DNA of 48,663 bases. Source: Oscillospiraceae bacterium (lineage in GTDB: Bacteria > Bacillota > Clostridia > Oscillospirales > CAG-272). The position numbers were made by a program, and so were the translations under genes. The stretch is taken from positions 1 to 48,663 of the forward strand of contig SVTW01000011.1 of NCBI GenBank assembly GCA_015063585.1. Reading direction: 5' to 3'. Of this stretch, positions 42,402 to 46,285 are shown one piece after another (the stretch's first letter is position 1; each line of letters starts with the position of its first letter). A model generated the notes under the pieces. The model did no database searches and had not been told where the DNA came from. It saw only the letters and a list, made by a program, of their open reading frames with translations.

Positions 42402-43147
42402 GTCGGTCGTTTCTAAACGTTTCCTATGGGGATCACCCCATGCAAAAGCTGGATCTTTATCTGCCTGACGCGGAGAACTTCCCTACCTTTCTCTATTTTC
42501 ACGGCGGAGGGCTGGAAAAGGGTGACAAAACAAGAACCGCGCACGTTGGCGCCTATCTTTCCGCGCGCGGCATTGCTTTCATTTCCGCCAATTACCGTCT
42601 CTACCCCGATGCAAAATATCCCGATTTCATTCGCGACGCGGCGCTTGCCGCGGCATGGGTCAAAAACAGGATCGGGGAATATGGCGGCAGCAACCGCGTC
42701 TACCTTGGTGGAAGCTCTGCCGGCGCGTATCTTTCCATGATGCTCTGCTTTGATGCCACCTATCTTGCGGCACACCGCCTCACCCCCTGCGATTTCACGG
42801 CGTTTCTGCACGACGCCGGGCAGCCCACCAAGCATTTTCGGGTATTGCGTGAGCTTGGAATCGACCCCAAACGGATCATTGTGGACGAAGCCGCTCCGCT
42901 CTACCATATCGGAACCGCCCCGGTCTATCCGCCCATGCGCCTGATCGTTTCGGATCACGACATGCAAAACCGCTATGAACAAACGTGTCTCACGCTCTCC
43001 ACGCTCCGCCACTTCGGATATCCTGAGGATCGCTTCGATTGGAAGTTGATGCAGGGCAAGCACTGTGCTTACGTAAAGGCGCTGGACGAGCACGGTGAAA
43101 GTGTGTTCGGTGCAATGATCCTTGCTTTCATGCAAACCTATTCGTAA
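42398..43147 (+). CDS. Alpha/beta hydrolase, HSL/BD-FAE-like esterase
   Basis: A 249-aa cytoplasmic alpha/beta hydrolase. The oxyanion-hole motif is YFHGGGLEKGD, the nucleophile Ser107 lies in GGSSAGAYL, an acid is in VSDHDMQ and the base is His222 in QGKHCAY. The arrangement suits short-chain esterases such as carbohydrate acetyl or feruloyl esterases. Coupled translation with the PQ-loop protein suggests a joint role, perhaps on an acylated sugar; this is inferred. Confidence 0.85.
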   Translation: MSRSFLNVSYGDHPMQKLDLYLPDAENFPTFLYFHGGGLEKGDKTRTAHVGAYLSARGIAFISANYRLYPDAKYPDFIRDAALAAAWVKNRIGEYGGSNRVYLGGSSAGAYLSMMLCFDATYLAAHRLTPCDFTAFLHDAGQPTKHFRVLRELGIDPKRIIVDEAAPLYHIGTAPVYPPMRLIVSDHDMQNRYEQTCLTLSTLRHFGYPEDRFDWKLMQGKHCAYVKALDEHGESVFGAMILAFMQTYS

Positions 43148-43152
43148 ACGTA

Positions 43153-43192
43153 AAAAAGATCTTCCGAGCCGCTTGGCACAGAAGATCTTTTT
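43153..43192. terminator. Bidirectional terminator after the esterase gene
   Basis: AAAAAGATCTTC pairs with GAAGATCTTTTT around a 16-nt loop, with T- and A-tracts on both sides. Confidence 0.85.
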
Positions 43193-43318
43193 ACTTTTCG
43201 CAACACAACATATTTATTATATCACATTTTTTATCGTTTGTAAAGCATTTTTTGATTGATAACGCAAAAATCTGTGTTTTACACAAAAAATATTTGTCAA
43301 CTTCTTACAATTTGCCAA

Positions 43319-43347
43319 TTGTAAAAGCAATTTTTTTGTGCTATAAT
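43319..43347 (+). promoter_or_regulatory. Promoter of the long non-coding transcription unit
   Basis: TTGTAA, 17 nt and TATAAT. The start is expected near 43353. No coding sequence with a credible start follows for about 500 nt. Confidence 0.75.
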
Positions 43348-43352
43348 AAGGG

Positions 43353-43817
43353 TGCAAGAAAAAAAGGAGGTAAGGTCCAATGGGCTGACGAACTTCACTC
43401 TTTTCAACGCGAGGGTAGGAAAACCGATCCACAATAAAAACGGTTTGAATAGGTAGCGTGAGAAAAAGCGAGTGTATATGTGCGTGTGAAGATAGATTTT
43501 ATAGAGTTTTTGGGAGTAGATTCAAACCGGTCTTCGTAAAAATTCGAAAATAGATAGGAGAAAAAAACACACCGATCATATCGCCTTCGCCGAAAAGAGA
43601 ACCACAAACTTCGCCTTTTGTAAATGAGAACAATGCAGACAAACAGACGGTATTCTCGTTAGAGAAAGTGGAAAATTGTGTTTTGTGCGGCTTGAGAAAA
43701 AAACAAAAGGTAGACTAGGAAAGAGAGGATAACAAAAGATGTTAGATACTAAGAACGAACAGAAGTGACCCTTGATTGTGGGCTTACAACCGCGATCAAG
43801 GGTCACTTCTTTTTTTA
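43353..43817 (+). ncRNA. Candidate large structured non-coding RNA
   Basis: About 465 nt between a good promoter and a very strong terminator, with no supportable open frame. The strand is purine-rich with A-rich linkers between complementary blocks: CGGTTTGAAT (43441) with ATTCAAACCG (43520), CCTTTTGT (43614) with ACAAAAGG (43703), AATGAGAA with TTCTCGTT nested inside, and AAACCG with CGGTTT as an alternative. AAGGAGGTAAGG near the 5' end is not followed by a usable frame. It does not look like tmRNA, RNase P RNA, 6S RNA or SRP RNA by recalled core motifs. Size and style recall the ornate large RNAs (ROOL, GOLLD, OLE), but I cannot verify a match. Confidence 0.65.
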
Positions 43818-43848
43818 GGCTCCCCCACCCTGCACGAGTGGGTTTTTT
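43761..43848 (+). terminator. Double terminator of the non-coding transcription unit
   Basis: First hairpin: AGAAGTGACCCTTGAT pairs perfectly (16 bp, plus 5 inner pairs) with ATCAAGGGTCACTTCT, then seven T. Second hairpin at 43824-43842: CCCAC with GTGGG, then six T. Confidence 0.9.
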
Positions 43849-43887
43849 CAACATTGGATCTATGGCGACACGTCGCCATCTGCCCAA

Positions 43888-44145
43888 TTACTGTTTTTTC
43901 TTCAAGGTGATGTCAGGCTCAACCGCTTTTCCCGCATGCTCAACCACACAAAAAGCATTGACAAACCCACGCGCCAACTTCGTCATAAAGGTGCTTGCCG
44001 TTGCGCTGATCGTTGTCACCTTGCTCAGCAATACCCCTACCGACGTACCGAGCGCAATGATAATGCCGCTCGCCGATACCAACGAGGTGGTGATTGCGGT
44101 AGGATCAATATAGAACGCCATGAAATTCATTCCTGTAAACAGCAT
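43888..44145 (-). CDS. Small membrane protein of the envelope-polymer operon
   Basis: An 85-aa protein with one hydrophobic segment (about 16-42) and a basic C-terminus. The N-terminal FYIDPTAITTSLVSASG resembles short YIDPGTGSM-type proteins that I recall next to sulfatase-like genes in Clostridia. It is the last gene of the operon, about 60 nt after the YidC fusion gene. The ATG at 44145 follows GGAGAG closely; a GTG at 44169 has no ribosome site. Function is not known. Confidence 0.65.
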   Translation of the reverse strand: MLFTGMNFMAFYIDPTAITTSLVSASGIIIALGTSVGVLLSKVTTISATASTFMTKLARGFVNAFCVVEHAGKAVEPDITLKKKQ

Positions 44146-44206
44146 GTTCTCTCCATTCCGCCGCTCCACGCGGCTTGTATTCGATGTAGTGGGAATTTCC
44201 TATCTT

Positions 44207-46285
44207 TTATTTCCGTCGCAGTGCTTGCTTCTCAATCAGCTTCCCAAGGATCCATTCCGCACCCACCGGATCGGAGTTTCCAACGTTATAGACTGCCGCA
44301 TTCAAAGCTTGCTCTATTCTCTGCTCATGCTCGCCCGCCCTCGCAAACATATCCTTTACGATGGAGGCGATGTTGGAAACGTCGTGCTTTTCAATGGATA
44401 CGCCGATCTCATCACGGAGCGTGATCTCAATGGGCGTGCAATCGATCTTTTGCCAATTTTCATTGAGCACCTTCATTTTGGTGTTGACAAAAAGGGTGGG
44501 ACGCTTTGTTGCAAAGCTGAATTCAAAGGAAATGCCCGACCAGTCTGTAATCATTAGATCGGAAGAATAGATGGACTTGTTGCTTGAAAAATCAAGCTCA
44601 AAGGTCAGCCCCTCCCCTACCCGATCGCGCCATTTTTCAACGGTCTCGTTCATGCGGGAGGCATAACGCTTGACGTATTCGGGATGGGGACGAACGGTGA
44701 TATGGTATTCGTCACTGAGTAGATTTTCCAGCATCGTATCAATGCAGGAATCCAAAATATTGTCTTCGTTCCAGGTCGGCGCGATCAGAATTTCACGTCT
44801 GCCCTCGGTTTTATGCGTTTTACGCTCCGCCTCTCCGAGCGGGATCAGATCGTCCACCAACGGATAGCCGAACTCCACGCATTTCTTTTCGGGAAGCCCG
44901 TACACGCGCTCGGTGGCGCGCACCTCACGCTTAATATGCGGTCCGGCACAGAAGACGGTGTCAAAGGCATCGAGCGAGCCCTCCTTCATTCCCATATGCA
45001 TGCTCATCAGCGCGTGGGGAATGTAGACGTACTCAACATCCTTTCTCATCATGGATTTTTTCAGATAATATTTATCAAGGTCGGGCGTGGTCATCACAAC
45101 CATATCGCATTCAAGCCGCAGCATCAGGCTGATCGTCTTTTTCAGTCCAATGTAGTAGGGTTTGATTCTCGGCTCGCTCTGCGCGATCTCGAAAATGATA
45201 TCATTGGGGTCGTTGGTGACGTAATGGATCACCATATCCGACCGAGCAAGCAGCTCTGCGATAAGACCCTTGAAATATTTATAAAAGCCGCTTTTTTCGG
45301 AATAGATCACCAGATGCTTGTTTACAATGGAGAAAAAGCGTCTGTAATCCTGCCGCTCGCGCCTTTTATTCTCCTTGATCCGCCGCTTTTCGGCATCCTT
45401 ATCAACCCCCTCCTCAAGCTTGGCAAGTGCTGCGCGCGATTTTTCAAGTGCCTCGTAATCAACGTGCTTTTTGGGGCTGATCGCGAGATTGAGCAGGAGA
45501 AGCTGGATCACCGAGAAAACGTTGCCCGCCATCCAATAGATCGCAATGCCTGCGGGCACAAAGCAGCCAAGATACAACGACAGCGCCACGGAAAAGATCA
45601 TGGTGCCGTATTTGTTTCCGTTTCCCTGCTCATGCTGGAGCACGTTCGCCTTGTTTTGGGAGAAGCAAAGCAACCAGGAGGACGCTGCAGCCAGCAACGG
45701 AATGACGGTGTAAACACCCCAAACCGCCGTTGGGATCACAGTCAGCTCCAAGCCCAAAAAGCGGCTGTCGAAGCCCGCGATCGACTCGTAAAGCCACGAA
45801 AAGCCTGCGGGAAGCGTATAATCCCCCGCTCTGACCGCTTCGATCAGCGCGAGCTGGAAGGACGAGCTTTCGGTATTTACCCCTGCCGCCGTTGCCAACT
45901 CCATAATGTCACGCTCCGCCACGCCAAACAAATACGTCAAGGGGCGGTTGATGATATACACCACGCCAAGCAGCAGCACAATTTGCATAATAAGCGGCAC
46001 CAGCGTGAGCATCGGGCGGTATTTTGTACGCTTGAAAAGCTTGGTCTGCTCGGTGGCAAGCATTTGGCTGTCACCGTTATACTTGACCTTGAGCATATTC
46101 ATCTCGGGTTGGATCTTTACCATCAGGATCGAGTTGTTGTGAATCCATACCGAGATCGGCAAAAGAACTATTTTGGTTGCCAAGGTGAAAAGCAGGATTG
46201 CAATGCCGTAATTGCTCACAAGCTGCCAGCACCATTTCATAAGCACTCCCAGAGGAATGCAGATATAATATAAGATCTGATCCAT
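44207..46285 (-). CDS. YidC/Oxa1 insertase-like domain fused to CDP-glycerol glycerophosphotransferase domain
   Basis: A 692-aa fusion. Residues 1 to about 270 are a YidC/Oxa1 insertase core with five or so membrane helices (about 8-45, 90-112, 183-208, 226-270). They include TLATKIVLLPISVWI, whose Lys38 takes the place of the groove arginine. A charged coiled-coil linker follows (about 275-320). Residues 322-690 form a TagB/TagF-type glycerophosphotransferase domain with PHALMSMHMG, VRPHPEYVKR and SSDLMITDWSGISFEFSFA. Such transferases use CDP-glycerol to build teichoic-acid-like chains. GGAGAAGAG precedes the ATG. It lies 28 nt after the LtaS-like gene. It is not in the rpmH-rnpA-yidC context, so it is probably not the housekeeping insertase. 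Confidence 0.88.
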   Translation of the reverse strand: MDQILYYICIPLGVLMKWCWQLVSNYGIAILLFTLATKIVLLPISVWIHNNSILMVKIQPEMNMLKVKYNGDSQMLATEQTKLFKRTKYRPMLTLVPLIMQIVLLLGVVYIINRPLTYLFGVAERDIMELATAAGVNTESSSFQLALIEAVRAGDYTLPAGFSWLYESIAGFDSRFLGLELTVIPTAVWGVYTVIPLLAAASSWLLCFSQNKANVLQHEQGNGNKYGTMIFSVALSLYLGCFVPAGIAIYWMAGNVFSVIQLLLLNLAISPKKHVDYEALEKSRAALAKLEEGVDKDAEKRRIKENKRRERQDYRRFFSIVNKHLVIYSEKSGFYKYFKGLIAELLARSDMVIHYVTNDPNDIIFEIAQSEPRIKPYYIGLKKTISLMLRLECDMVVMTTPDLDKYYLKKSMMRKDVEYVYIPHALMSMHMGMKEGSLDAFDTVFCAGPHIKREVRATERVYGLPEKKCVEFGYPLVDDLIPLGEAERKTHKTEGRREILIAPTWNEDNILDSCIDTMLENLLSDEYHITVRPHPEYVKRYASRMNETVEKWRDRVGEGLTFELDFSSNKSIYSSDLMITDWSGISFEFSFATKRPTLFVNTKMKVLNENWQKIDCTPIEITLRDEIGVSIEKHDVSNIASIVKDMFARAGEHEQRIEQALNAAVYNVGNSDPVGAEWILGKLIEKQALRRK

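Follow-up and report, generated by a model that had tools for sequence, protein, structure and literature searches.

A Putative Stand-Alone Structured RNA of Gut Clostridia with a Conserved Micro-ORF at Each End

Results

Layout of the Locus

The stretch of DNA analyzed here (the window, 48,663 nt of an Oscillospiraceae bacterium contig) carries at 43319–43848 what is very probably a stand-alone, chromosomally encoded structured RNA, belonging to a family without an Rfam match and bearing a conserved micro-ORF at each end. We base this on the sequence and its comparison with relatives; the features are collected in Table 1. The original prediction had placed an independent unit of about 460 nt here, rather than a leader, behind a near-consensus promoter and ahead of a double intrinsic terminator. 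Both signals are present, the second terminator being the weaker, the next gene lies on the other strand, and no neighboring gene is conserved among the relatives. The prediction had also given terminator 1 a perfect 16-bp stem and a run of seven T. The seven T are there, but the stem consists of 15 Watson–Crick pairs followed by a G-U pair (20 pairs when G-U pairs are counted).

Table 1. Features of the element and of its divergent side, in order of position in the window.
Feature	Position	Strand	Basis or remark
Hairpin and T-run, predicted end of a short divergent RNA	43152..43192	−	read from sequence
Divergent promoter TTTACA-17-TATAAT, extended −10 (TGTGATATAAT)	43216..43244	−	11/12 consensus matches, TG before −10
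Main promoter TTGTAA-17-TATAAT, extended −10 (TG ahead)	43319..43347	+	10/12 consensus matches
Shine-Dalgarno 1 (AAAGGAGGT)	43363..43371	+	sequence, relatives
ORF1, ATG GGC TGA (Met-Gly-stop)	43380..43388	+	start-stop minigene common to relatives
P2a 5' strand (CTCTTTTC aac GCGAGG)	43398..43414	+	pairs with 43584–43599; MFE, equivalent helix in relatives
P2b 5' strand (CGGTTTGAAT)	43441..43450	+	10 bp with 43520–43529
ATAGAT internal motif, conserved	43492..43497	+	relatives
P2b 3' strand (ATTCAAACCG)	43520..43529	+	sequence, relatives
P2a 3' strand (CCTTCGC c GAAAAGAG)	43584..43599	+	MFE, sequence
P3 5' strand (GCCTTTTGT)	43613..43621	+	pairs with 43703–43711
P4 hairpin TTCTC-GTTA-GAGAA	43653..43666	+	variant forms in relatives
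P3 3' strand (ACAAAAGGT)	43703..43711	+	sequence, covariation; next to Shine-Dalgarno 2
Shine-Dalgarno 2 (GAGAGG)	43723..43728	+	within most conserved block
ORF2, ATG TTA GAT ACT AAG AAC GAA CAG AAG TGA (MLDTKNEQK*)	43739..43768	+	relatives
Terminator 1, stem 43762–43809, then seven T	43762..43816	+	5' arm holds ORF2 stop (43766–43768)
Terminator 2, weaker than terminator 1	~43824..43848	+	sequence, scan

A scan of 43100–43950 returned four promoter-like sites (1.4 ± 1.4 in shuffled sequence) and two terminator-like sites (0.8 ± 0.9). Given these shuffle counts, the scan alone is weak and the case for the unit is made by the relatives. The minimum free energy (MFE) of 43354–43848 was −132.8 kcal/mol, lower than in all 100 shuffles (−111.9 ± 5.8; z = −3.6), a difference owed partly to the terminators. 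Frames opening with ATG, GTG or TTG and lying mostly inside the unit encode 31–61 aa on the plus strand and 45–103 aa on the minus strand. The window's own assembly, which is 86.5% complete, holds one full copy only.

The unit reaches further left than first noted, as it includes a divergent promoter and the hairpin terminator that goes with it. The predicted divergent RNA of the window is about 60 nt long and begins near AUGUUGUGUUGC. Its terminal hairpin is palindromic and probably also terminates the upstream plus-strand gene. We searched the other copies for TTTACA or TTGACA, a spacer of 15–19 nt and a TAnnnT-type −10, required to lie upstream of the main promoter and to direct transcription away from it. 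Of the 109 copies with a located main −10, 94 contain this pattern and none has it on the other strand; shuffled sequences contained it 18 times in 2180. About ten of the 15 copies that it missed have a near-consensus promoter by eye, and five have none (L047, L133, L171, and L172 twice). In the copies displayed, the predicted start of the divergent transcript is near TGTTGTG or TATGGGCG; within a few tens of bases the transcript commonly runs, by eye, into a hairpin with a T-run.

Relatives and Their Distribution

We assembled 134 distinct copies of the element after merging those with identical 3' ends and setting aside three covariance-model matches judged spurious or secondary (L145, L146 and the second match in L156). 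Many of the copies stem from related species and do not count as independent. By blastn, conserved 5' and 3' blocks were found in congeners and other genera, in 62 of 196 genomes, a count that includes many matches of 20–50 nt that may be due to chance. The main-promoter region was among the parts conserved (query 8–53 of 43330–43860). A pattern written for the 3' block matched 86 stretches in the GTDB collection. Among the matches listed (80 of 86), all are metagenome-assembled genomes labeled Clostridia or Oscillospiraceae bacterium; the RGIG records in that list come from the cecum, colon or rectum of buffalo, deer, goat, sheep, cattle or yak, and the SIG records carry no source name.

A covariance model built from 30 sequences of the 3' end (R1) matched 74 of 394 order genomes, spread over 36 of 168 genera, 22 of 391 in a class sample and 2 of 299 in a phylum sample, one of the last two being weak (34 bits) and the other the window's own genome; these tallies include that genome, and the class and phylum samples also contain members of the order. 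The order and class tallies are upper estimates because any match was counted, such as a partial or antisense terminator alone (G127, G212) or what we read as a spurious hit (G750, G560). Several genomes have copies on different contigs (e.g., G223, G369, G354), and tandem copies occur in L159 and L172. One copy is in G425, a single-contig genome of 2.9 Mb that may therefore come from an isolate. The family is widespread in gut Clostridia and apparently undescribed. Neither PMC8040213 nor PMC2864571, as far as the consulted parts of these sources go, nor the other open-licence literature consulted contained a description of the element or its peptides that we recognized. PMC8040213 lists thousands of candidates, and a similar motif may lie unnamed in supplementary lists of this kind.

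Two Conserved Micro-ORFs

The original prediction saw no credible reading frame in the unit. Long frames are indeed absent, but there are two conserved micro-ORFs, each behind a Shine-Dalgarno sequence. Judged by this conservation, a purely noncoding reading of the unit fails.

ORF1 is a start-stop minigene (Shine-Dalgarno, AUG, one or two codons, stop) and is conserved as such, being present in 119 of the 130 relatives with enough upstream sequence; L059, L082, L101 and L106 lack that sequence. A script located promoter, Shine-Dalgarno and start in 111 copies. Counting the start, ORF1 has two (11) or three (94) codons in 105 of these, and all 105 have the start in a CC-N-AUG context. The stops of the 111 are TAA (90), TGA (12) and TAG (9). 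Reading added 14 more ORF1s: those of L020 (true ORF1 ATGAGAAATTGA), L165, L155 and eleven others. L165 has lost its first start codon and shows two further minigenes after it; other copies, such as L047, L119 and L033, have two or three minigenes. ORF1 is 13 codons long in four copies (the two tandem copies of L159, L163 and L173) and disrupted in L080, and none was seen by reading in six divergent copies (L156, L157, L160, the second copy of L167, L169 and L170). The 13-codon sequences, in the order just given, are MYTKRQSPKVTGR, MYTKRQNPKVTVR, LYNVKTETSVKPV and LYRTLTETSAKTV and come from two different families.

ORF2 follows a second Shine-Dalgarno sequence and encodes 7–10 residues, mostly MLD[IT]K..., in 134 of 134 copies, all of which were found through the 3' module made up of that Shine-Dalgarno, ORF2 and the terminator. 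For 96 of the 134, the search pattern demanded a start codon and YTAGAT, which biases the start and codons 2 and 3; the stop was not demanded. It is TGA in 113 copies, TAA in 17 and TAG in 4, and no copy is longer than ten residues. The commonest peptides are MLDIKSEQK (38) and MLDTKSEQK (18). Distant copies swap codons and keep length and stop (LSEPKNEQK, LAEPKSEEN, MIEPKSFGK, MKTDFKSEQN, MKLQIDSEQK). In 129 of 134 copies the stop codon of ORF2 falls within the terminator's 5' arm; in L172 it lies just outside the stem, and the script returned no stem for the other four. The opposite arm tracks the stop, its middle base forming G-C in 27, A-U in 3 and G-U in 1 of 31 copies.

A codon-substitution test on ORF2 did not single out frame 0: the synonymous share was 24.5% in frame 0, 5.6% in frame 1 and 26.4% in frame 2 (33.8% stop-involving), for ORFs of nine codons with the stop thereby fixed. 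As the test did not distinguish the frames, the case for translation rests on the conserved Shine-Dalgarno, start, stop and length. A dual-function small RNA would combine a function at the RNA level with an encoded peptide; the comparison shows covariation and ORF2 conservation side by side, and the element is at most a candidate.

A Core Variable in Sequence and Constrained in Shape

Between the micro-ORFs lies the core, the least conserved part of the element. As far as the alignments go, it appears variable in sequence and constrained in shape, and the covariation in P3 and the pseudoknot, together with the long-range helices of relatives, bears out the structured RNA originally proposed. 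P2a and P2b are nested long-range helices that follow ORF1 and enclose a variable domain, and their complementarity is kept despite differing sequence. This includes the 10-bp long-range pair singled out in the original prediction (P2b), which we consider real, as its sequence shifts among relatives and its complementarity does not. Own P2 strands scored 19.25, swapped strands 16.11 ± 0.46, with a maximum of 17.65 in 2000 permutations; this test and the P3 permutation test used 30 of the 134 copies and ignored their kinship. In single sequences P2a was recovered in 48 of 62 copies, but 15 of 62 shuffled controls yielded it as well. It begins at a median of +21.5 from the AUG of ORF1.

Seven of the nine P3 pairs are changed on both sides across 31 relatives. 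P3 and the pseudoknot together gave a covariation of 0.286, compared with 0.172 ± 0.012 in shuffles (0 of 500 as high) and at most 0.115 for slid partners. Double changes were found in eight of their pairs, a number reached by 4 of 500 shuffles with kinship ignored; the terminator, its 3' arm having been picked by complementarity, is excluded from this count. Pair counts are restricted to the 31 copies of the 134 in which every block is present, in an alignment built of fixed-length blocks. The distance from the end of P3 to the AUG of ORF2 is 25–31 nt in 69 of 71 copies. P4 takes the forms TTCTC/GAGAA, TTCTT/AAGAA and, once, TTCTG/CAGAA in the relatives.

In many relatives ATAGAT is preceded by ACACGRCGGUG...CGY, from which an H-type pseudoknot could form. 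Among the 57 copies with this motif the pseudoknot pair is G-C in 45 and A-U in 12 with no exceptions; 56 were found by a pattern allowing only G/A and C/U, and the 57th (L050) with any loop letter. The motif is absent from the window copy, which keeps P2a, P2b, P3 and P4, and nine compact copies of about 215–270 nt are without the pseudoknot. We also considered a switch, drawn by eye, in which the P3 5' strand would pair with AACAAAAG before the AUG of ORF2 and hide it. The corresponding spacers of L098 and L111 do not follow the changes in P3, and the switch was rejected.

Genomic Surroundings

The gene downstream of the element is on the plus strand in 44 cases and on the minus strand in 36. 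With no conserved co-directional gene downstream, and with the window's next gene on the other strand, we rejected a riboswitch or attenuator leader. The 123 flanking proteins fall into 112 Pfam families, none of which occurs in more than three, and the 25 commonest include no integrase or transposase. No defense family recurs beside the element either: 15 PADLOC families are each represented by one of the 123 neighbors, which argues against a defense island. A phage, plasmid or viral element was likewise rejected, as blastn against phages and plasmids gave no match and neither did a search of IMG/VR viral contigs with the one exact 3'-block pattern.

The window's neighbor gene at 44207–46285 has full-length orthologues in 5 of 34 congeners, and no copy of the element lies in the adjoining 0.9–1.5 kb of any of them; the position of the element is therefore not conserved within the genus. 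The flanks of the five all differ, so that these are rearranged loci and not clean empty sites. This gene (minus strand) is a single 692-residue ORF that joins a YidC/60KD_IMP insertase (26–266) to a CDP-glycerol glycerophosphotransferase (320–601). The five orthologues are near full-length at 57–61% identity, and the match in G018 (L178) has one internal TAA. Adjoining the fusion gene at 43888–44169 (minus) is a 93-residue protein, and tblastn found a similar small ORF beside the L180 orthologue; small ORFs next to the other orthologues look alike by eye. In L131 a Gut-1 RNA (RF01706, 1814–1888) lies about 200 nt 3' of the element end. Elsewhere tRNA genes lie close downstream (L127 1384–1456, L129 1326–1409, L088 3410–3482).

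Comparison with Known RNA Classes

None of the 4227 families of Rfam 15 reached its gathering threshold by cmscan in the 48.7-kb window or at the loci of 20 relatives. The element thus has no clear match to a common RNA, which agrees with the original view that the known housekeeping RNAs do not fit. A relaxed scan (E up to 10), which covered two elements, gave four sub-threshold matches on 43200–43950, the best of them Ms_IGR-7 on the terminator at 28.1 bits (cut-off 45). ROOL, GOLLD and OLE are large structured orphan bacterial RNAs, and the original prediction offered that class or a new RNA as alternatives. We take all three to be among the 4227 families; none gave a covariance match in the window or at the 20 relatives' loci, and membership was rejected, leaving the suggestion that the RNA may be new. 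The element further differs from them in its conserved micro-ORF at each end and in having neither a phage or plasmid match nor an Rfam match.

ARAGORN found no tmRNA in the window; a normal tmRNA lies elsewhere in 5 of 5 genomes tested, and that of the window's genome is at G000:C90. The raiA/ModT model (RF03072) had no match on the element in the window or at the 20 relatives' loci, and this candidate was also rejected. A further search with the raiA model gave 0 of 60 relatives, a weak result since the same search was silent in controls too.

Discussion

In the reading that we favor, to which we give a probability of roughly 0.4, the element is a structured RNA acting in trans, bracketed by two ribosome-loading sites, and the supply of ribosomes sets its stability and its 3' end. 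A ribosome held at ORF1 would cap the 5' end of the RNA against ribonucleases without entering the core, from which it would be kept out because ORF1 stops just before P2a. A second ribosome would load at ORF2, directly after P3, and could open the base of the terminator. The leading edge of a ribosome lies at about the +21.5 from the AUG at which P2a begins. From this spacing and the 25–31 nt between P3 and the second AUG, both ribosome sites would flank the core without entry. The ORF1 cap is not universal, however, given the six copies without a recognizable ORF1, the four with a 13-codon ORF1 and the disrupted ORF1 of L080.

We prefer this to a micropeptide mRNA, which is possible and somewhat less probable. 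There, ORF2 (MLD[IT]K[SN]xxK) would be the product, and ORF1 and the structure would form a leader with one to three start-stop uORFs gating ORF2. That the core is conserved least and that nine compact copies do without the pseudoknot argues for ORF2 as a possible product; ORF2 with its Shine-Dalgarno is the most conserved block and is found in every copy, even those lacking ORF1 or the pseudoknot, with length differences in frame and several types of stop. Yet the peptide has only 7–10 residues, and its C-terminal half is variable. The near-fixed third positions of TTA and GAT suggest a constraint at the RNA level, although they are partly a product of the search pattern in 96 of 134 copies. 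Nor does a peptide gene need to overlap a terminator, as nearly all copies do. That overlap counts in favor of a ribosome-controlled terminator, in which the ribosome ending ORF2 covers the 5' arm and transcription reads through to terminator 2 or a neighbor, giving short and long isoforms. Within 110 nt, 63 of 125 relatives have a second terminator, compared with 79 of 375 shuffles. We nonetheless consider this account improbable: the other 62 of 125 have no second terminator at that distance, and read-through would lack a common target because the downstream genes are not conserved.

Less probable again is that the element is an insulated cassette, selfish or mobile, or takes part in phage defense, and happens to have promoters and terminators of its own. 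The patchy distribution, the several copies per genome in some cases, the tandem copies and the non-conserved window locus, with five congener orthologues lacking an adjoining copy, would suit such a cassette. The blastn searches of phages and plasmids and the one-pattern search of viral contigs speak against it, as do the neighbors, in which integrases and transposases are missing from the 25 commonest families and defense families are scattered singly. The five congener loci are rearranged, with no clean empty site among them, and the cassette keeps a small probability. Finally, that the element is a diverged member of tmRNA, raiA/ModT, ROOL, OLE, GOLLD or RNase P is very improbable. The size ranges overlap, but no Rfam family reached gathering in the window or at the relatives' loci, the tested genomes have their tmRNA elsewhere, and the raiA search of 60 relatives, with its silent control, found nothing.

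The nearest likeness is to raiA/ModT which, in the consulted part of its description, is a stand-alone structured RNA of Clostridia with a terminator, pseudoknots, and short and long isoforms, acting in trans (PMC11706538). Both are stand-alone clostridial RNAs, and the element adds minigenes; the main text of that paper, as consulted, is without the term "open reading frame", whereas the element has two micro-ORFs. The RF03072 model, with 209 positions, also has different motifs. Another conserved structured RNA with a short ORF, downstream-peptide/Yfr6 (about 250 nt), is cyanobacterial, its ORFs typically have 17–100 residues, and the part of the source consulted mentions no start-stop minigene (PMC2864571). 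ORF1 itself resembles the leader minigenes axe-txe mg2, ler and esp, which likewise consist of a Shine-Dalgarno, AUG, very few codons and a stop; for the two-codon minigene of axe-txe, stabilization of the RNA by the bound ribosome was proposed, in cis (PMC8708949). In the consulted part of that work, minigenes were tested in cis with a protein gene downstream rather than in an independent RNA. Those minigenes sit in the leaders of protein genes, whereas ORF1 stands at the head of an independent structured RNA and has been retained in many bacterial families. Lambda bar is another two-codon minigene.

The favored trans-acting RNA may, more speculatively, stand for a new class of RNA machine, in which a core between two ribosomes, one parked on ORF1 and one reading ORF2 and opening the terminator, would monitor free ribosomes or the capacity for initiation and pass the signal on in trans, with the divergent promoter and its hairpin RNA as part of the system; this wider proposal is tentative, possible and still rather unlikely. 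The element has perhaps been overlooked because it fits no category: ORFs this short are not taken for genes, it is too coding for a noncoding RNA, and it has no conserved neighbor. If the micro-ORFs are translated, an independent RNA would have a start-stop minigene among its conserved working parts, something beyond a curiosity of leaders, and the element would offer a clean system for studying the effect of one ribosome on two codons.
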